A DNA stretch of 43,603 bases, taken from positions 1-43,603 of the forward strand of contig CALMRE010000247.1 of the NCBI GenBank assembly GCA_937871295.1, written 5' to 3'. Under the pieces are notes generated by a model that worked only from the letters and a program-made list of their open reading frames with translations, was not told the DNA's origin and did no database searches. This document shows, one piece after another, positions 25,204 through 34,845 of this stretch. This stretch comes from an uncultured bacterium. GTDB taxonomy: Bacteria; UBP6; UBA1177; JAKLFG01. The first letter of the stretch is position 1. Every line of letters begins with the position of its first letter. Position numbers and translations under genes: made by a program.

Positions 25204-25222
25204 GCCGGTCGGCCGCTTTTTT
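25203..25222 (+). terminator. intrinsic terminator of the ispD-lnt operon
   Basis: GGCCG-GT-CGGCC (25203-25214, or a GGCC stem with a GGTC loop) is followed by GCTTTTTT. It starts in the lnt stop codon and separates lnt from the convergent lipoprotein gene. Confidence 0.75.
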
Positions 25223-26001
25223 CAGTAACAGTAGCCTTGAATGCAGGGCATGCCGCTGCAGCAGGTGTCGCGCGCGGAGCACCGTTCGCCCGCCGGTATG
25301 CACTCCATCACATTGACCATCATCAGCGCCGAACCGCCGGAGCACTGGACATCATCCTGACACAGGTACTGTTTCTCGGCGGCGCATTCGAAACACTCGG
25401 AGCGCTGGCTGTAGGAATTGTAGGTCTGACATTTGGTCTCGCCGACCTTGCAGGCGGCCTGAACGCATTGCGAACCGTTCATGTAGACCTCCCCCTGCGC
25501 GCAGATGCCGCAGACAGCGAGGGTGCCGGTGGTCGCGCATTTGAGTCCCAGAAGCCCCTTGTCCGCGTAACAGCAACCGGAGGGGCAGTTGGTTTCGCTG
25601 CAAGCGCCGCTTGAGGCGAGGGTGTTGAGACAGCGGCCCAGTTTTGTGTTGCAGGTGGTGTTGGGATAGTTCGCGCAATCGGCCGCGCTTTCACAGCCCT
25701 TTGCACATTTCGCCTTGACGCAGATGTCGGGCGCGCCGCAGTCGGAATCGAGTTTGCAGTTCGCCGGAGGCAGATCGTTGTCGGGCGAGATGTCTTCGCC
25801 GTCATCGGTATCCTCCGTTTCGGCGGCGTCGGGCAGATCGTTCTCGGTTTCGGGCAGACCGTCCTGCTCGACCGGACCGATGGGATCCTTGTCGCTGCCG
25901 ATGTCGCTATCGGTAATGTAGGGTACGGGATTGGGATCGCCGCAGGCGGCGATGAACAGCGCCGTCGTGCACAACAGGATGCGGACCACCGCCTTTCTCA
26001 T
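25222..26001 (-). CDS. Cys-rich lipoprotein under an ECF-type promoter
   Basis: A 259-residue predicted lipoprotein: lipobox I-A-A-C20, an Asp/Glu/Pro linker to about residue 80, then a domain with some thirty Cys. The pattern (NCKLDSDCGAPDICVKAKC, GCESAADCANYPNTTC, CPSGCCYADKG, CSARDTCCSGMPCIQGYCY) is of the small disulfide-rich, dickkopf/EB-like type common in myxococcal surface proteins. It is likely exported and held by disulfides; no enzymatic motif is seen. A GGAGG on the minus strand precedes the ATG. Its promoter at 26044-26073 matches the one upstream of the anti-sigma gene, linking it to the sigma-factor cluster. Confidence 0.78.
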   Translation of the reverse strand: MRKAVVRILLCTTALFIAACGDPNPVPYITDSDIGSDKDPIGPVEQDGLPETENDLPDAAETEDTDDGEDISPDNDLPPANCKLDSDCGAPDICVKAKCAKGCESAADCANYPNTTCNTKLGRCLNTLASSGACSETNCPSGCCYADKGLLGLKCATTGTLAVCGICAQGEVYMNGSQCVQAACKVGETKCQTYNSYSQRSECFECAAEKQYLCQDDVQCSGGSALMMVNVMECIPAGERCSARDTCCSGMPCIQGYCY

Positions 26002-26043: not shown

Positions 26044-26073
26044 AATAGACCGGCGGCGCAGCGGAGAAGTTTC
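26044..26073 (-). promoter_or_regulatory. ECF-sigma-type promoter of the Cys-rich lipoprotein
   Basis: On the minus strand GAAACTT (26067-26073) and GTCTATT (26044-26050) are separated by exactly 16 bp. Both boxes and the spacer length equal those at 29753-29782. The start site would be near 26037, about 35 nt before the ATG at 26001. No sigma-70 boxes compete nearby. Confidence 0.65.
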
Positions 26074-26098
26074 GGTGCGGGGTGAAAAATATCGGCCG

Positions 26099-27508
26099 TT
26101 ACGGCAACGGATGGAATAACACGAAGATGTCTTTGCCGCCGTCGCTCTTTTTGCCCAGATCGCCGCCGGTCCAGCCGGTGGCGACGAGGTAGCCGTCGGC
26201 GATGCGGAGGGACTGCGCCACTTCCCGTTCCGGGGTGCCGTAAAGTATCGTCCATTGTTCGACGCCGCCGGAAGAAACGGCGGTCAGGAAGATATCGCGC
26301 TCCCCCTTGTTCACGCCGTCGCCCAGATCTCCCTCGGTGAAGCCGGTGGCATAAACGGCGCCGTCCGCATCGACCGCCACCGAGTAGACCATGTCATCCT
26401 TCGGAGTGCCCCACTGGTAGGTCCAGAGTTGATCGCCGGCCGCCGAGAACTTCACGAGAAAACAATCTTCGCCGCCGACATTGGAAAAGCCGCTGAGGCC
26501 GCCGGTGGTGGCGCCGCCGATGTAGATGGAGCCGTCGGGCGCGACGGTGACCGCGTAGGATTTGTCCTCCGAATAGGAGCCCCACTGACGGGTCCAGTCG
26601 ATGGCGCCGTCGGCGGAGAGCCGGGTCAGAAATATGTCGTTCCCGCCTAGGCTCGCCTCGCCGGACATGTCGCCGTAGGTCCAGCCGGTCACATAGATGC
26701 CGGCGCTGTTCTCGGCGGCGACGCTGTAGCCGACATCGATCAGGCCGCTGCCCCATTGGGTGCTCCACGCCTCGTTGCCGGCGTTGTCGAAGCGGGAAAG
26801 GAAAATGTCGCTGAAGCCCAGATTGTCGTTATCGCCCACGGCGCCGTAGGTCCAGCCGGTGACATAGGCGTTGCCCTCCGAATCGACCGAAACGCCGGTG
26901 GGATATTCCTGTTCGAAGGAACCCCATTCCTTGCTCCAATCCACGCCGCCGTCGGCGGTGTGGCGCGCGATGAACATACGGCCGATGCCGGCGCCGGTGA
27001 AGGGATCGACGATGGCGTCGCGCGAGCCGGATAGATAGAGATGCCCCGACGCGTCAATGGTCAGGGTGGAGCCTTGATCGAAGTTCGCGGTGCCCCACTG
27101 TTCGGTCCAGAGGAACGCGCGGTCCGGGCTCAATTTCGTGAGGAAGATGTCGCTGGAGCCGGCGTTCGTATTGCCGAACAGTTCGCCGGTGGTGCCGCCG
27201 GTCACGTAGAGGCTTCCGTCAGGCGCGGTCACCGCCGCCAGCCCGGTGTCGTCGCCCGGAGAGCCCCACTGGATGATGAGCGGTAGCGGCAGAATGTCCC
27301 CGTCATCGTCGGGCAGTTCGTTTTCCTCTTCTGGGAGTTCGCTTTCCGGCAGGTCGTCGTCAAGCGGAGGCTCGCCGTCGTTCAGGTCATGGTCGGGGGT
27401 ATCCATATCGATGATGCCGCAGGGGATCTGACGCTCGACCGGACCGGGACAGCCGGTCAGGAGAAGGAGGGGCAGGAGCGCCGCGATGCGGATGAGGAGT
27501 ACTTTCAC
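26099..27508 (-). CDS. SBBP-repeat beta-propeller lipoprotein
   Basis: A 469-residue predicted lipoprotein with lipobox L-T-G-C20 and a Pro/Asp/Glu linker to about residue 78. About seven to eight SBBP-type propeller repeats of about 50 residues follow, each with a phrase such as DIFLTRLSADGAIDWTRQWG, then GNAYVTGWTYG or GSIYIGGATTG. These repeats are common in deltaproteobacterial and myxococcal exported proteins and form propellers without known catalysis. The GTG at 27508 overlaps the stop of the upstream beta-barrel gene as GTGA and places the signal peptide at the N-terminus. It is the last gene of the sigma-factor operon. Confidence 0.8.
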   Translation of the reverse strand: MKVLLIRIAALLPLLLLTGCPGPVERQIPCGIIDMDTPDHDLNDGEPPLDDDLPESELPEEENELPDDDGDILPLPLIIQWGSPGDDTGLAAVTAPDGSLYVTGGTTGELFGNTNAGSSDIFLTKLSPDRAFLWTEQWGTANFDQGSTLTIDASGHLYLSGSRDAIVDPFTGAGIGRMFIARHTADGGVDWSKEWGSFEQEYPTGVSVDSEGNAYVTGWTYGAVGDNDNLGFSDIFLSRFDNAGNEAWSTQWGSGLIDVGYSVAAENSAGIYVTGWTYGDMSGEASLGGNDIFLTRLSADGAIDWTRQWGSYSEDKSYAVTVAPDGSIYIGGATTGGLSGFSNVGGEDCFLVKFSAAGDQLWTYQWGTPKDDMVYSVAVDADGAVYATGFTEGDLGDGVNKGERDIFLTAVSSGGVEQWTILYGTPEREVAQSLRIADGYLVATGWTGGDLGKKSDGGKDIFVLFHPLP

Positions 27509-28482
27509 GGCGTATCTCTCTCGTAGGCGGCCGATAGTTCGAGCATTACGGTGTGGCCTTCCATCGTATAGTCGATATAATCGCTGGGAGACTGGCCGAA
27601 ATTCGAGAAAATATGGCGATAGGAGTAGGCGAGCGACATCGAGAAGTATTTCGTCATATCCCAAAGCACCTGTGTCGATACCGAGGGACTGTGCTCGCGT
27701 CGTCGTTTCGACCATTCGTTGAAACGGTCGTTTTCGAGCCACTCCATATAGGCATAGCGGAGCGTTGCTTTTAAAAAGACCGGGGCGAAGTCGATTTTCC
27801 CCTCGAGGAAGAGATAGGGTTTTATGAAGGAGTTGTTGACGCGGAGCGTATCGGTACAGGAGGTGAGTATCTCGGGGCGGAAGAAGTACCCTTCAAAGCC
27901 GATGCCCGGCTTCAGATAGTCGGTGTAGGCCGTAGGATAATAGAAATAGCCGAGTTCGATACCCACGGCGGGGCCGGTCATGTAGCGCATGTCCTCGTCG
28001 AACCCGGTGTAGTAGCCCGCTTTGAGTGTCGCGTAGGCTGCGTGGTCGTCGGAAATATCCCAGAAAAGGTCGCCGGTGACGAACAGGTCGAGGAACATAT
28101 TGCGCATCTGCAGATAGTTCTCGGCGGTGTGGTGCGCCTGCAGGGTCAGGTCGAGCGTCAGCCGATCATGCGGTTCGCCATGCCAGCCCAACTCGAAAAA
28201 GGAGTTGAAGCGCGATCTCTCGGGAGAGTTCAGGCACGTGTCGGAGGAGAGGGAGAGCGAGAAGGAGAAACTCTCGGTCTCGCCGAAGGCATATTCGTAT
28301 TCCGCCGAGGCCTCGTTGCGGATGAAGATGCCGTATTGTTTTCCCACGGTCAGAAAATCGATGATCGAAAGATGCTCGATGTTGCTGTTGTAGAATCCGG
28401 CCACGCTTCCTCGTACCGCAAGATGGTCGGCCCGAAGAAGGAAGGGGAAAAACAAGAGAAGCAGGAGAAAGGAGCTATTCAA
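27505..28482 (-). CDS. exported beta-barrel-like protein, probably outer membrane
   Basis: A protein of about 325 residues starting at TTG 28482, which overlaps the upstream stop by 8 nt. The start NSSFLLLLLFFPFLLRADHL is a signal peptide with cleavage near Ala-Asp. The mature part alternates polar and aromatic residues over many 8-12 residue stretches (YGIFIRNEASAEYEYAFG, SFSFSLSLSSD, LTLDLTLQAHH, ATLRYAYMEWLE, FSMSLAYSYRHIF, HTVMLELSAAYERD), the pattern of an outer-membrane beta-barrel of about 12-16 strands. I do not recognise the family. The start is chosen by the overlap and the signal peptide; no Shine-Dalgarno is visible, so translation is probably coupled. It lies between the Pro-rich protein and the SBBP lipoprotein in the sigma-factor operon. 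Confidence 0.68.
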   Translation of the reverse strand: MNSSFLLLLLFFPFLLRADHLAVRGSVAGFYNSNIEHLSIIDFLTVGKQYGIFIRNEASAEYEYAFGETESFSFSLSLSSDTCLNSPERSRFNSFFELGWHGEPHDRLTLDLTLQAHHTAENYLQMRNMFLDLFVTGDLFWDISDDHAAYATLKAGYYTGFDEDMRYMTGPAVGIELGYFYYPTAYTDYLKPGIGFEGYFFRPEILTSCTDTLRVNNSFIKPYLFLEGKIDFAPVFLKATLRYAYMEWLENDRFNEWSKRRREHSPSVSTQVLWDMTKYFSMSLAYSYRHIFSNFGQSPSDYIDYTMEGHTVMLELSAAYERDTP

Positions 28483-29005
28483 CGCGACGGTTGTGATAAT
28501 TCCGTTCTTTCCGTTTTTCACGCAGGAGTTCACGCCGTTCCTTCTTCCGTTTGTCGGCGCTATCGTCCTCGGTTTCCTCTTCTTTGTCAATTTTTGATGT
28601 CGGCAGGAGCGGCGGCGGTGTCGCCGGAGCGGTCGGTTTCCGGAGGGGGCGCTCGGCGGCATCGGCAACGGGCGGCTCCGCTTTTTCGGGGGGCGTTACC
28701 CGTTCGGTCCGGTCGGTCGCCCTTTCCATGCGCCGCGGTGTTGCGGTGCGGTTGAGGAGGGGCGGTGCGGACCGTTTCACCGTCGGGGCGGGGATCGCCG
28801 CGTCGGCGTCGGGAATGAGGGGCGCGTCGGGCTGGGCGAGGACCGCGGGCGGCGGCGGCGGCAGGAAGCGCAGTTCCCAGCCGGGGGCGGTATTCCCTTC
28901 GATGATGCGCACGGTGCTGCCGGTTATCGGGTCGGCGGCGGCCGCAAGGGGAAGGGGGGTGAACAGGAGAGAAAGGATCGCGAGGCTAGTTGACCATCTG
29001 CTCAT
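28475..29005 (-). CDS. exported proline-rich protein of the sigma-factor operon
   Basis: A 176-residue protein with a signal peptide (SRWSTSLAILSLLFTPLPLA then AAADP). About 30 residues of possible beta structure follow (GSTVRIIEGNTAPGWELRFL), then a long disordered region rich in Pro, Ala, Arg and Glu, and a basic C-terminus (KRKKERRELLREKRKERN). It has no lipobox. Its gene overlaps the anti-sigma gene by 20 nt and the beta-barrel gene by 8 nt. A span of this type could cross or tether the periplasm, but no family is recognised. Confidence 0.68.
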   Translation of the reverse strand: MSRWSTSLAILSLLFTPLPLAAAADPITGSTVRIIEGNTAPGWELRFLPPPPPAVLAQPDAPLIPDADAAIPAPTVKRSAPPLLNRTATPRRMERATDRTERVTPPEKAEPPVADAAERPLRKPTAPATPPPLLPTSKIDKEEETEDDSADKRKKERRELLREKRKERNYHNRRVE

Positions 29006-29729
29006 CGGTGACCTCGGTTTTCAGGCGGTACTGGGCGATCACGACCTTGTAACCATCGGCCGAGAGGATGACGCGGTGCCGGTGCCGCAGACCCTCGTAT
29101 TCGGCGGTCGTGGCGATCTGCCAGACCCCTTTCTGAGCGACCGTGACGGCGAAGGGCACCGCGTTCTTGCCCTTTTTGAGCGGGCCTGACCAACTGAGGG
29201 TCTTCCGGGATGAGATATCGGGATGAGAACTGTAGAAGGAAAGGCCCGCCTCCAGTTCGATGGTCACCGTCACCGCGGCCAGATCGCGCGCCGCTTCGTA
29301 CTCGAGTTGGATGGTGACCGGTCCGCCGGCGGCGACCTCCGCTTTAGAGATAAGCGTTCCCTCGTCGCGGTCGCCGGTGCCGTCGGCGAAATAGAGCGCG
29401 GAGGCGAGGGCGACGACGAAGAGCGCCGCGACGCCGGTCAAGAGCGGCCGCGTGAAGAAGGAAAAACGCCGGGCGGGTGCCGCGGTGCGCCGTTCCTGCG
29501 CCGCTGTGACCAGTTTCAGGTGGAGCGTTTCGTCGAAGGCTGGGGGAAGGGGCATCGGGCTTTTTTTGAGGCCGTCGGCCGTTCCCTTGAGCGAACGGGC
29601 CACCGCGAACTCTTCGGCGCAGGAGGAACAGGAGGCGCAGTGCTCCCGCAGCCTTTTTTCCCCCGCATCGTCCAGCAGGCCGTTCAGCCAACCGACGATA
29701 AGTTCCCGATAGCCGTCACAATCTCGCAT
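28986..29729 (-). CDS. zinc-finger anti-sigma factor
   Basis: A 247-residue transmembrane anti-sigma factor. The cytoplasmic part has the ZAS motif H30-x3-C34-x2-C37 (REHCASCSSCAEEF), which holds the ECF sigma factor inactive. A transmembrane helix lies near residues 88-107 (LLTGVAALFVVALASALYF). An extracytoplasmic domain of about 135 residues with beta-sandwich character follows (GGPVTIQLEYEA, AAVTVTIELEAGLSFY, NAVPFAVTVAQKGVW), the likely sensor. The ATG at 29729 is preferred over GTG at 29738: GAGG lies just upstream, and the ECF-type promoter at 29753-29782 would start transcription near 29746, too close to the GTG. The gene is 37 nt downstream of the sigma gene. Confidence 0.83.
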   Translation of the reverse strand: MRDCDGYRELIVGWLNGLLDDAGEKRLREHCASCSSCAEEFAVARSLKGTADGLKKSPMPLPPAFDETLHLKLVTAAQERRTAAPARRFSFFTRPLLTGVAALFVVALASALYFADGTGDRDEGTLISKAEVAAGGPVTIQLEYEAARDLAAVTVTIELEAGLSFYSSHPDISSRKTLSWSGPLKKGKNAVPFAVTVAQKGVWQIATTAEYEGLRHRHRVILSADGYKVVIAQYRLKTEVTDEQMVN

Positions 29730-29752
29730 CTTCCTCACCGTGTGAACTGTCT

Positions 29753-29782
29753 AATAGACCGGACCATCATCTAAAAAGTTTC
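29753..29782 (-). promoter_or_regulatory. ECF-sigma-type promoter before the anti-sigma gene
   Basis: Minus-strand GAAACTT (29776-29782) and GTCTATT (29753-29759) are 16 bp apart. The -35 box lies inside the last codons of the sigma gene. It would drive the anti-sigma gene and the three exported-protein genes behind it. The only matching pair seen in the window is at 26044-26073. Confidence 0.62.
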
Positions 29783-30330
29783 TTATGTTCCAACGCCAAC
29801 TTAAAAAGATTTTCGCGCGCCCGGAACAGCCGCGATTTGATCGCGCTCTCCGAAACGCCCAGAAGGGCCGCCGCTTCGTCGTAGCGGAGTTCCTGCAGAT
29901 CGACCAGCGCTATCACCTCGCGGTGTTCGGCCGAAAGCATCCCGAGCATTCGGTGCAACTGTTCCCGCCGCTGTTCCTCGGCGAGCGTTTCGTCGAAATC
30001 GCGTCCTTTGGTCAGTTCCTTTTCGGGGATATCGTCGAGCGGCAGGTTGCCGGAGGTCTTCGGGCTCACACGGTAATCGACGAATTCGTTACGGGTGATC
30101 CGCCACAGCCACGTCATGAAGGAGCATTCGCCGCGGAACCGGGAGATATTGAGAAAAGCCTTGAGGAACGCCTCCTGCAGAACATCGGCCGCGGCCGCGT
30201 GGTCGCCTCCCGTCAGGCCCAGCGCGAAGGAGTAGAGCCCCTGCTTGTGATCCTTCACCAGTTCCTCGAAAGCGCGGACATCGCCGGCGACGGCCCGTTT
30301 GAGGAGTTCGTTCGTTCGTTCAACGGTCAT
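29767..30330 (-). CDS. ECF-family RNA polymerase sigma factor
   Basis: A 187-residue extracytoplasmic-function sigma factor. Region 2 covers about residues 20-88 (AFEELVKDHKQGLYSFALGL, ADVLQEAFLKAFLNISRFRG, FMTWLWRITRNEFVDYRV). Region 4 covers about 125-180 (EQLHRMLGMLSAEHREVIAL, LRYDEAAALLGVSESAIKSR, LFRARENLF). There is no region 3 or extra C-terminal domain. The gene heads a minus-strand cluster with a ZAS anti-sigma factor and three exported proteins, so it probably responds to an envelope or surface cue. Its own promoter looks sigma-70-like and is so close to the ATG that the mRNA may be leaderless. Confidence 0.92.
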   Translation of the reverse strand: MTVERTNELLKRAVAGDVRAFEELVKDHKQGLYSFALGLTGGDHAAAADVLQEAFLKAFLNISRFRGECSFMTWLWRITRNEFVDYRVSPKTSGNLPLDDIPEKELTKGRDFDETLAEEQRREQLHRMLGMLSAEHREVIALVDLQELRYDEAAALLGVSESAIKSRLFRARENLFKLALEHKKLFR

Positions 30331-30336
30331 GCGCTA

Positions 30337-30364
30337 GTTGTACCGTTCCTTTAATTTTTTTCAA
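30337..30364 (-). promoter_or_regulatory. sigma-70-like promoter of the sigma-factor gene
   Basis: Minus-strand TTGAAA (30359-30364) and TACAAC (30337-30342) have a 16-bp spacer. The -10 box ends only 6 nt before the ATG, so the transcript would start at or near the A of the start codon (30330). No Shine-Dalgarno is correctly spaced. Confidence 0.5.
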
Positions 30365-31016: not shown

Positions 31017-33119
31017 CTAGTGTTCCGATATATCCTTGAGCATGAGGCCGCCGGGGTAGGCGTATGAGACATCCTGCTCCCAGCCGTAGACGAACAGGCC
31101 GCAGCCGCCGGGACAGGTCAGTTCGTGCCTCTTGAAGTCGCTGCCCAGTTGGGCGATGGAGAACTGGTACCCGGTGCCGGCGATGTCGATGAAATCGCTC
31201 ACGACCGTTCCGTTAAGGGTCGCGACGATATTTTTCGGCTTGACGATGGTGGCGAAGTTCGACACATAACTGCCGGGGGTCAGGAAGATGTAATTCTCGC
31301 GATACTGCTCTATCGGCGGGATCACCATCATCGCCGGATCGCCGACACATTCGGAGCCGTGCATGTTCATGCAGGAGGCCGATATCATCTCGGAGCCGGT
31401 GACATACTGGGCGACCATGATCGGTTTATTGGAGGTGATGAAGAGCGGCTGCTGGATGTAGAATTCGGTCCACTGCTGGGCGTTGAGGAATTGGCTCGCG
31501 TCCCACGTGGTGATCCCCTGAAGCGCGGTCGGGATGAAGGGGGTGTAGCCGATCTCGGTCCCGTCTTCCGAAGCGACGATGCGCACCATATCGAAATCGG
31601 TGTCGCCGCGCGGCATGGTCTTCACGATGATGTACTGTTTGCCCCATATCTGGACGGGGAACATCTGGTGTTCGAGGTGGTCGCAGTAACTCCGTTCCGC
31701 CGGTACGTTGGCGCAGACATGACCGCCGAAGACGACGAAGGGGGCGCAGGTGGCCGAATCGGGTGTCTTGCAGCGGATGCGGGCGCCGGTGATGTCGGGA
31801 CCCTTGTCGCTGCTGTTGGTCGGTCCTTCCAGCTGTATGGTCTGGAACCGTTTGAGTTTCAGCGTGGTCCATGCGTTCGCCGCTATGTTGCTCACGCCGT
31901 TGCCGAAATCACCCGAAAGGGCCACGGGAGAATTGACCTCTATCTCTATTTCGGTCGGGTTGAAGCCGATGACGGTGGCGTAGGAGGGGGCGACGGTGGA
32001 AAGAGCGTGGTAGGAGGTGACGATATAGTCGGTGTAGAGGCCGCTGGTCGGCATCAGGAGCGAGGCGTCGTTGGAATACTGTTTGCCGCCGGAACTCCCG
32101 CCCGAATCGACCGAGAGGCCGTCGGCGGTGAAGGGATTGGCGTTGCTGTTGTCGAAGGGGTTGAACTGATAGACCGATACCGGCATATCGGAGACGATGT
32201 GATAGGAAAGGAACGAACTTCCCGGTCCGGTTATCATCCGGTCATGGGGAAAACGGATGATGCCGAGTTTCTTCGGCGGGATGGAAAGCGCCAGCGAGGT
32301 GGTCATGGTCTGGCAGTCGGTCGCGTTGTCGATGCAGAAATAGTTGAGACCCGCGTCGGTCTCGGTCGTGCCGTCGGCCGAGATCGTGATATTCACCACG
32401 GCGGTCATGGTGTCGTTGGTGTTGCTGACCGTTATCGAGTAAACGGGGTCGGTACGGGTCTGGAGCAGGTTGCGCAGGTTGGCGGTGAAATAGTCGCACC
32501 CTTCGTAACTCTTTTCGATGGCCTTTATCTCGCAGAGGGTCAGGCAGTTGCCGCCCAGACACTTCTCTCCGGCCAGTTCGTCGCAGGTCTCCACCGGATC
32601 GGTCAGATGGCCGAGTCCCGTTTCGTCACACTCGTAGACGGCGTAGGGGTCGGCGGTCGTGTCGCAGATATGGGACCCCGGCGTGCACATCTGGTACTGA
32701 CAGCCGAGAGTATCCTTGCAGACGAACCCGGTGGGACAATCCTTCTCCTCCTCGGCGCTACCGTCCGACTTACAGGAGACCACCTTGCTCTCATCTCCTT
32801 CCACACAGCTGATGAAGGCATTCGGTTTGCAGAAGGTGTCATAGTCGGGCGCTTCCAGATCGGCTTCGGTCGGCGGATTCTCGTTTTCGGTCACCGTTTC
32901 CGTTTCGGTCTGCGTTCCGTCGTCGTCGGTCGGGTCGTTCTCGTTCCCGTTCTGGTCGGCCGCGACCTCCTCCTTCAGGCACTGACTCAAATTCAGGTCG
33001 CAGGTGTATCCTTCGGGACAGGGGGTGAACTGGTCGCAGTAGATCGCTTCCTCCTCCTTGGTGCAGGCGAAGGAGAGAAGCAATGCGACCGCAAAAAACG
33101 CGAACAAAGTACGGGTCAT
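31017..33119 (-). CDS. IgGFc-binding-like surface lipoprotein
   Basis: A 700-residue predicted lipoprotein; the signal peptide ends SFA-C19. A Cys motif (CDQFTPCPEGYTCDLNLSQC) is followed by an Asp/Glu/Asn/Thr linker to about residue 85, then a second Cys-rich stretch (CVEGDESKVVSC, CPTGFVCKDTLGC, GSHICDTT). From about residue 200 to the end it matches the IgGFc-binding-like module of myxococcal proteins: SITVSNTNDTMTAVVNITIS, FPHDRMITGPGSSFLSYHIV, YIVTSYHALSTVAPSYATVI, MFPVQIWGKQYIIVKTMPRG, IPPIEQYRENYIFLTPGSYV and CGLFVYGWEQDVSYAYPGG. A ligand-binding or adhesive role outside the cell is likely. GAGGTG precedes the ATG at 33119; an in-frame ATG at 33131 lacks a ribosome site. Confidence 0.82.
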   Translation of the reverse strand: MTRTLFAFFAVALLLSFACTKEEEAIYCDQFTPCPEGYTCDLNLSQCLKEEVAADQNGNENDPTDDDGTQTETETVTENENPPTEADLEAPDYDTFCKPNAFISCVEGDESKVVSCKSDGSAEEEKDCPTGFVCKDTLGCQYQMCTPGSHICDTTADPYAVYECDETGLGHLTDPVETCDELAGEKCLGGNCLTLCEIKAIEKSYEGCDYFTANLRNLLQTRTDPVYSITVSNTNDTMTAVVNITISADGTTETDAGLNYFCIDNATDCQTMTTSLALSIPPKKLGIIRFPHDRMITGPGSSFLSYHIVSDMPVSVYQFNPFDNSNANPFTADGLSVDSGGSSGGKQYSNDASLLMPTSGLYTDYIVTSYHALSTVAPSYATVIGFNPTEIEIEVNSPVALSGDFGNGVSNIAANAWTTLKLKRFQTIQLEGPTNSSDKGPDITGARIRCKTPDSATCAPFVVFGGHVCANVPAERSYCDHLEHQMFPVQIWGKQYIIVKTMPRGDTDFDMVRIVASEDGTEIGYTPFIPTALQGITTWDASQFLNAQQWTEFYIQQPLFITSNKPIMVAQYVTGSEMISASCMNMHGSECVGDPAMMVIPPIEQYRENYIFLTPGSYVSNFATIVKPKNIVATLNGTVVSDFIDIAGTGYQFSIAQLGSDFKRHELTCPGGCGLFVYGWEQDVSYAYPGGLMLKDISEH

Positions 33120-33153
33120 GTGACACCTCATAAAAACCGTTGGTCTGGAGGGG

Positions 33154-33181
33154 ATTATAGGTGTCTGGAAATAATTTGCAA
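33154..33181 (-). promoter_or_regulatory. sigma-70 promoter of the IgGFc-binding-like gene
   Basis: Minus-strand TTGCAA (33176-33181) and TATAAT (33154-33159) are separated by 16 bp, about 35 nt before the ATG at 33119. Confidence 0.7.
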
Positions 33182-33191
33182 TATGGCGGAC

Positions 33192-33225
33192 GAAAAAAAA
33201 CGGCCGGCCCCGCAGGACCGGCCGT
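33192..33225 (-). terminator. strong intrinsic terminator after the thioredoxin-fold lipoprotein gene
   Basis: Read on the minus strand, ACGGCCGG and CCGGCCGT form a perfect 8-bp stem around a 10-nt loop, followed directly by eight T. It separates the 33250 gene from the downstream lipoprotein gene. Confidence 0.93.
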
Positions 33226-33249
33226 GGACAAGTGAATAGAGCGGGGGTA

Positions 33250-34845
33250 TTAACCGCCGCAACTGCCGCCTTTCGGCGCCGGAGCGGGAGCGGTGCCCGG
33301 GGCCGGGGCGGTGGGAACGATGGCCTTCTCACAGCCCTTCTTGCCCGGGTTTTGGGTGCAGAACTGACGCTGGATGTCGGGGGCGGAGATGCCCGAGAAC
33401 TTGAACTTGTTGTTGGCGAGCCACGTCGGGCTGGCGCCGATCTCGAGACCGTTGGCGATCTTGATGTTCTCGCTGTGGAGTTTCCTGCCCTCGTCGCCGG
33501 TCGAACACTTCTCGATCTTCTTCGGGTCGATGCCGTTCACCGCGCACTTCTGCCATTCGGCCGAGCGGATATCGGGATTGCGGCACCAGATGTAATCCAT
33601 GTACTTGAAGTCCTTCGGGTAGTACTTCATGGCGCACAGTTGGCGGATGTTCTCATCGACCTCGGGCTGGCCGTGCAGGGCGTTGAATTTGCCGTCGGGC
33701 GTCTCGGTGGCGATGTAATTGACATGGAAGTCGATCTTGTTGCCGAACGCCTTGAGCACGTCCTTCATCGCGTCGAGCGCCTTGGTGCCGTAGGGGCACT
33801 GGCTCATGACGAACAGATCGAGCCGTTCCTTCATCTCCTTGCGGCAAACGAGGTTGTTCTTGCAGGTGTCGTCGTCGCAGTCGATCTTGCCGTCGCCGGT
33901 GTCGTCGATGGTGTTGTCGCATATCTCGGCGGTCGGGTCGAACTTGCCGCCCACGCGGAGCATTTTCTTGTCGTTGACATCGAGCATCCAGCGCTGGACC
34001 TGCTGGAACCCGGCATCCTCGGTCACATTCTTGTCGAACAGGAACGCCGGAAGCAGTTTCGCATCGGTTCCCTTAATGGTCTCGTAGAGTTTCTTTCCCT
34101 CATCGGTGCCGTAGTCGATCTTCTTCTCGACAAGGCCGGGGAAGATGTTCTTCATCTGGTTGATGATCGGATCGACCACGCAGTTCTTGCAGCGGGCGTC
34201 GGTCAGGACCGTCAGATCGACCTTCTTGGGGGCCGGGATCGATTTGCAGGCTTCCGGTTTGTTCTCCGGTTTGTAGGCGTTGCAGATGTTGCGGAGAAAA
34301 TCGTTCTCGGTGCGGCCGCCCTTGTAGCGTTCGCCGTTGACGAAGATGGTGGGGGAGCCGCTCGCCTGCTTTTCCTTTGAAGCGGTATAGGAGGCCGAAA
34401 GCAGTTTCTTGCCTTCGTCGCCGTCGGCGCAGGACTTGATCTTGGCGCCGTCGACTTTCGCCTCGGTGGCGCAAGCGTCGAAATTATTCGGGATCTCACG
34501 GTAGTTCTTGTTCATGCAGAACACGAGGTCGAGATATTTCTTGGGTTCGACCTTCGCGGCGCAGATCTCAAGCAGGTTGCCCTTGACCTCGTTCTCGCCG
34601 TGCATGGAGGAGAGCTGACCGTCCTTTTCCTGACCGATGAAGTGGCGGTTGAATTCTACCGCGTTGCCCAGTTTGTCGAGGACCGGCTTGATGCCGTTAT
34701 CGACCTGAACGCCGAAGGGACACTGCGACATGATGTGGAAATCGACCTTTACCTTCTCTTTGGCGGCGCCGCCCTTCTTGAGCTGGTCGCAACCAGACAG
34801 CAGTAACGCAGTGGCGGCCATCGCCACGATGATGAACTTTTTCAC
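33250..34845 (-). CDS. lipoprotein with tandem GILT/DsbA-like thioredoxin folds
   Basis: A 531-residue predicted lipoprotein, lipobox L-S-G-C19 with Asp at +2. It has three thioredoxin-like parts. Part 1 (about 32-200) has SQCPFG at C42, HGENEVKGNLLEIC and the cis-Pro-like GSPTIFVNGERYKGG. Part 2 (about 208-300) has a true CxxC, C219-K-N-C222. Part 3 (about 340-505) repeats part 1 with SQCPYG at C350, HGQPEVDENIRQLC and GASPTWLANNKF. The outer parts resemble GILT/DsbA reductases but keep only the first active-site Cys. A MopE-like metal-binding stretch (ICDNTIDDTGDGKIDCDDDT, about 308-327) joins parts 2 and 3; the tail is Pro-Ala-rich and ends SCGG. It lacks the Asp linker of its neighbours. 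GTG at 34845 lies 6 nt after GGAGG; the ATG at 34851 abuts that site. Confidence 0.8.
   Translation of the reverse strand: MKKFIIVAMAATALLLSGCDQLKKGGAAKEKVKVDFHIMSQCPFGVQVDNGIKPVLDKLGNAVEFNRHFIGQEKDGQLSSMHGENEVKGNLLEICAAKVEPKKYLDLVFCMNKNYREIPNNFDACATEAKVDGAKIKSCADGDEGKKLLSASYTASKEKQASGSPTIFVNGERYKGGRTENDFLRNICNAYKPENKPEACKSIPAPKKVDLTVLTDARCKNCVVDPIINQMKNIFPGLVEKKIDYGTDEGKKLYETIKGTDAKLLPAFLFDKNVTEDAGFQQVQRWMLDVNDKKMLRVGGKFDPTAEICDNTIDDTGDGKIDCDDDTCKNNLVCRKEMKERLDLFVMSQCPYGTKALDAMKDVLKAFGNKIDFHVNYIATETPDGKFNALHGQPEVDENIRQLCAMKYYPKDFKYMDYIWCRNPDIRSAEWQKCAVNGIDPKKIEKCSTGDEGRKLHSENIKIANGLEIGASPTWLANNKFKFSGISAPDIQRQFCTQNPGKKGCEKAIVPTAPAPGTAPAPAPKGGSCGG

Follow-up and report, generated by a model that had tools for sequence, protein, structure and literature searches.

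Organization of the gene cluster

The window, a stretch of 43,603 nucleotides from an uncultured bacterium, contained a gene for an ECF sigma factor followed by genes for a zinc-type anti-sigma factor, a Pro-rich secreted protein, an outer-membrane beta-barrel protein and two lipoproteins (Table 1). An earlier note on this DNA, made from the sequence alone, had proposed a neighboring ECF sigma/anti-sigma pair, and the analysis bore this out with sigma regions 2 and 4 and a zf-HC2 type gene directly downstream. In Pfam, the sigma protein matched Sigma70_r2 (52 bits, residues 24-87) and Sigma70_r4_2 (55 bits, residues 122-175) with nothing in between; it scored 88 bits against the NCBIfam sigma70-ECF superfamily and 77.6 bits against the RpoE equivalog TIGR02939, far under the cut-off of 236. 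Its best solved relatives were the E. coli sigma-E structures 1or7/6jbq.

Table 1. Positions of the cluster genes, the putative promoters and the candidate RNA (window coordinates, except for the last row).
Feature	Position	Strand	Details
Sigma-70-like promoter of the sigma gene (putative)	30337..30364	-	TTGAAA 30359-30364, N16, TACAAC 30337-30342
ECF sigma factor gene	29767..30330	-	187 aa; regions 2 and 4 only
ECF promoter 1 (putative)	29753..29782	-	-35 GAAACTT 29776-29782; -10 GTCTATT 29753-29759
Zinc-type anti-sigma factor	28986..29738	-	One predicted membrane helix; beta-sandwich domain at the C-terminus (model)
Pro-rich secreted protein	28475..29005	-	176 aa; syntenic in G001-G004
Outer-membrane beta-barrel protein	27505..28482	-	TTG start, overlaps previous gene; syntenic
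SBBP beta-propeller lipoprotein (LipL53-like)	26099..27508	-	Pfam SBBP, 46.5 bits
ECF promoter 2 (putative)	26044..26073	-	-35 GAAACTT 26067-26073; -10 GTCTATT 26044-26050
Asp-rich, Cys-rich lipoprotein	25222..26001	-	259 aa; downstream of promoter 2
Candidate small RNA	L001:1532-1629 (G000 C87, about 1756-1853)		Conserved in G001 and G004

The anti-sigma gene was syntenic in five genomes, and its conserved start is probably the ATG at 29729. The zf-HC2 score of the protein was 20.6 bits, just below the curated Pfam cut-off, and the NCBIfam antisigma/RsrA matches were weak. Residues C7, H33, C37 and C40 were invariant across the orthologues of the five genomes, the last three forming the HxxxCxxC motif of zinc-binding anti-sigma factors. 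In a structure search with the anti-sigma model, the matches were to complement-type beta-sandwich domains, and none was significant. The pair is an ECF sigma factor with a zinc-type anti-sigma factor, a known kind of system. The model of the barrel protein showed 14 long strands at moderate confidence, and the SBBP lipoprotein scored 161 bits against NCBIfam Lepto_SBBP_lipo, under the equivalog cut-off of 400.

The TACAAC element upstream of the sigma gene ended 6 nt ahead of the ATG, and TTGAAA-N16-TACAAC was found with the same spacing in the genome under study (G000) and in G001, G002 and G004 of its family. The sigma-gene mRNA is probably leaderless and transcribed from this housekeeping-like promoter. 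Upstream of the cluster, at 31017-33332, lay the gene of a further lipoprotein rich in Asp and Cys. It had no clear ECF motif, and no match to it was found at the syntenic place in G001, G002 and G004.

Two ECF-type promoter sites and their conservation

The earlier note had described GAAACTT-N16-GTCTATT twice on the minus strand, and its coordinates and strand proved exact. Promoter 1 (GAAACTT TTTAGATGATGGTCCG GTCTATT) overlapped the last codons at the 3' end of the sigma gene, ahead of the anti-sigma operon, while promoter 2 (GAAACTT CTCCGCTGCGCCGCCG GTCTATT) ended 42 nt before the ATG of the Cys-rich lipoprotein gene. The two sites shared both boxes, the spacer length of 16 and the CCG before GTCTATT; the remaining spacer letters differed. 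The pattern GAAACNT-N15..19-GTCTA had two matches in the window, where 0.04 were expected by chance, and two matches were obtained in 0 of 100 shuffles of the window. With a weight matrix built only from the sites of relatives, promoters 1 and 2 ranked first and second in the window with 33.0 and 28.6 bits, against 10.8 bits for the distinct place ranked next and 17.8 bits for the top score over 20 Markov (shuffled) windows.

All five family genomes (G000-G004) carried the motif at the sigma/anti-sigma junction, and so did G006, which belongs to a different family of the same order; recurrence of the motif in relatives that carry the same pair was a check that the earlier note had suggested. 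In the alignment of the six promoter 1 sequences, the conserved blocks were GAAACTTTTT/GGAACTTTTT (the -35 box with a T-tract) and GTCT. The -35 box of promoter 1 was partly coding (Lys/Glu-Leu-Phe) and protein constraint could account for some of its conservation, whereas the -10 box and the spacing lay outside this constraint. Promoter 2 was kept at the syntenic place in the three genomes that cover the region (this one, G001 and G002), and in G001 and G002 it was conserved amid diverged intergenic flanks; the G004 contig stops before the lipoprotein gene and the compared G003 sequence ends short of it. The gene order of the cluster was kept in G001 and G002, and in G003 and G004 as far as the compared sequence reaches. 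The Cys-rich lipoprotein, which had been taken for a second target outside the operon, does have a conserved promoter site of its own, but it belongs to this syntenic cluster as its final gene.

Which sigma factor reads the sites

The genome encoded at least 8 sigma relatives, the three closest being 42-48% identical to the sigma factor of the cluster. The sites might therefore be real ECF promoters that are read mainly by one of these paralogues, or by several sigma factors with overlapping specificity, and overlapping ECF regulons are known from Corynebacterium (PMC10012870). However, across six genomes and two families the motif was found at the junction of this sigma gene only. At the junctions of the three closest paralogues and their orthologues it was absent, and the anti-sigma gene started directly after the sigma gene. 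The helix that reads the -35 box also differed, with KSRLFRARE here and KTRAMRARE, RSRLSRARE and KPRIFRARQ in the three paralogues. The stretch SR(L/I)FRARE was common to this sigma and E. coli sigma-E, which reads GGAACTT (PMC8103513) and has a GTC -10 (PMC10012870, citing PDB 4LUP and 2H27). Because of the paralogue junctions without the motif, the differing -35 helices and the likeness to sigma-E, recognition by the sigma of the cluster is the most likely reading, and we infer that it, and not a paralogue, would read both sites. Some overlap of specificities among the sigma relatives of the genome is possible; that a paralogue would be the main reader appears improbable. The adjacent anti-sigma gene, the AAC-containing -35 boxes and the -10 boxes of the CGT/GTC type at the sites fit an ECF (group IV) sigma factor.

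Distribution of the motif across genomes

Genome-wide, the motif was followed by pattern searches. The pattern GRAACT-N17-GTCTA had 25 matches in the five family genomes, 23 of which preceded an anti-sigma operon, a lipoprotein, a secreted trypsin-like protease or a membrane protein. By inspection, four were ahead of anti-sigma operons, three at the Cys-rich lipoprotein, four ahead of its paralogue, four ahead of an FG-GAP lipoprotein, four ahead of the trypsin-like secreted protease, three ahead of other lipoproteins (one with the Pfam domain DUF3160) and one ahead of a membrane protein, while two lay within genes. As orthologous sites are not independent, the matches represent about 9 independent gene groups. 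Signal peptides were encoded downstream of 18 of the 25 matches and of 2 of the 26 sites of a backwards-read control (p=2e-6), the control sites being mostly in coding sequence; the 18 were settled by inspection, as the automatic call mis-flags one anti-sigma factor and overlooks one gene that is truncated at the end of its contig. In raw number, with 25 matches against 26 for the backwards-read control in the five genomes, the pattern showed no excess, and count enrichment was rejected as evidence. Another shuffled pattern gave only 4 matches, so the choice of control matters much, and most matches with one or two mismatches were background. What marks the regulon is position and conservation, not match number.

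Chance, in which coding constraint at the sigma C-terminus is joined by a coincidental second match, would be in keeping with the coding -35 box of promoter 1 and with loose-pattern counts equal to the control; it is contradicted by the -10 box and spacing conserved outside coding sequence, by the recurrence of both sites at syntenic places and by the positional bias, and is very unlikely.

Positions T8, T9 and G23 were conserved, though free in the main search pattern, and the emergent consensus, GRAACTTTT-N13-GGTCTA, was E. coli sigma-E-like; 26 GRAACTT-N16-GTCTA sites went into a matrix of the motif. The spacer distribution peaked at 16 (24 of 42 loose matches), and additional spacer-16 sites in G002 and G004 were likewise ahead of lipoproteins. 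GRAACTT-N16-GTCTA had 20 matches in 13 Mb of the family and three in 12 outgroup genomes (about 33 Mb), one of these being the G006 sigma/anti-sigma junction and one lying ahead of a G015 lipoprotein gene. A transcription factor binding site would be another reading of the repeated motif, as a dimeric factor would also fit two conserved blocks at fixed spacing. However, the two blocks do not form an inverted or a direct repeat, the motif occurred in a single orientation and mostly close to genes, and it equals the known ECF promoter form with a 16-bp spacer, which makes this reading very unlikely.

Synteny, phylogenetic footprinting and the positional control support what the earlier note had proposed: the ECF-type promoters, the neighboring sigma/anti-sigma pair and the Cys-rich lipoprotein as a second target. 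Its "local" regulon was too narrow, as the sites are genome-wide, with six more conserved or well-placed sites on other contigs of this genome, mostly before lipoproteins or secreted proteins. A paralogue of the Cys-rich lipoprotein elsewhere in the genome was 54% identical and had the same promoter upstream. At this paralogue (L010, L099; G000 C243, G001 C74:23929) the ECF site lay about 190 nt before the start, and between the two was a AATAGTTGA stretch resembling that before the sigma gene, which is perhaps a second, housekeeping promoter.

A proposed self-limiting envelope regulon

From the sites, their conservation, the synteny and the types of the genes downstream, it is very probable that the ECF sigma encoded at 29767-30330 uses both sites as promoters and that they drive an envelope regulon that limits itself. 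A housekeeping promoter would serve the sigma gene, and the membrane-bound zinc-type anti-sigma factor would retain the sigma protein until a signal, which we infer to come from the envelope, releases it. Released sigma would then transcribe the anti-sigma gene together with the genes for the Pro-rich protein, the outer-membrane barrel and the SBBP lipoprotein from promoter 1, the Cys-rich lipoprotein gene from promoter 2 and, elsewhere in the genome, genes for dispersed lipoproteins and for the trypsin-like secreted protease; a small RNA would probably be a further target there. The barrel and the lipoproteins point to an envelope function. No ECF motif was found upstream of the sigma gene in G000-G004, as positive autoregulation would call for; this does not exclude ECF membership, because only about 55% of ECFs are autoregulated (PMC8103513). 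Since promoter 1 would drive the anti-sigma operon and not sigma, the feedback would be negative, and with the inhibitor but not sigma among the targets the response would limit itself.

The uncultured bacterium thus appears, judging from its DNA, to possess a counterpart of the E. coli envelope-stress regulon. The two systems share the GGAACTT / GTC promoter form, the 16-bp spacer and envelope-directed targets (PMC8103513); a small-RNA arm, represented in E. coli by MicA, RybB and MicL, may exist here as well. Unlike in E. coli, the anti-sigma factor is of the zinc-finger type (zf-HC2 signature) and not RseA, no promoter of the ECF motif type precedes the sigma gene, and the targets are mostly lineage-specific lipoproteins. 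The wiring resembles that of sigH-rshA and sigE-cseE of Corynebacterium glutamicum, in which sigma comes mainly from housekeeping promoters and an HxxxCxxC anti-sigma factor from an ECF promoter between both genes (PMC3489674, PMC10012870); for sigH-rshA, an additional SigH-controlled promoter serves rshA alone (PMC3489674). The Corynebacterium pairs differ in their -10 (GTT, here GTC), SigH also in its -35 and spacer, and their targets are unrelated (chaperones, redox). With the zinc-binding anti-sigma (ZAS) family, the anti-sigma factor shares the invariant HxxxCxxC and C7 and the N-terminal anti-sigma domain, whereas its membrane helix and C-terminal beta-sandwich, which had no confident structural match, set it apart.

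Literature searches on lipoprotein regulons under ECF control and on internal ECF promoters found nothing closer than Corynebacterium. Regulons of ECF sigma factors are already known, as are promoters of the sigma-E form and anti-sigma genes driven by sigma; what is new, as far as the searched literature shows, is the lineage, a target set dominated by lipoproteins, and the candidate RNA. The analysis provides a sequence-based regulon for a lineage represented here by no cultured member and a putative assignment of a promoter to a specific sigma. In this regulon, lipoprotein families that otherwise lack names (Cys-rich, FG-GAP, SBBP, DUF3160) would share a single envelope response with a secreted protease, and the system would add another case in which a sigma factor induces its inhibitor and not itself.

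A candidate small RNA

A GAAACTT-N15-GTCTAT site was found in G000 C87, G001 C74 and G004 C62, followed in each by about 96 conserved nt that end in a strong terminator. This stretch is a candidate for a sigma-dependent small RNA and is open to testing. It had a folding z-score of -3.1 and a conserved, anti-Shine-Dalgarno-like UCCUCUUC stretch; an open reading frame was not evident, no Rfam family scored above its cut-off, and no DNA homologues were found convincingly beyond these three genomes. The downstream gene, which we take from its protein sequence by eye to be that of formate-tetrahydrofolate ligase, had its own sigma-70-like promoter, located after the terminator of the candidate RNA.

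A full sigma-E-like envelope response, with a zinc-type anti-sigma factor, a diverging arm of Asp-/Cys-rich lipoproteins and a small-RNA arm, is a tentative and rather doubtful extension of the regulon. If it is true, the ~96-nt RNA with UCCUCUUC would reduce other envelope mRNAs, as a parallel to MicA and RybB of E. coli, and the protein arm would be made up of surface lipoproteins that are rich in Asp and Cys and diverge rapidly.

A separate conserved intergenic site, GAAACTAA..GGTCTGTT, was observed at L077:1501-1600 and L076:1501-1600 (G000 C74:60349, G001 C3:72764) and had no match in an Rfam search. It was followed in both by a common GATAGGT..GACGGGTTTGAAA stretch, with different genes downstream in G000 C74 and G001 C3.
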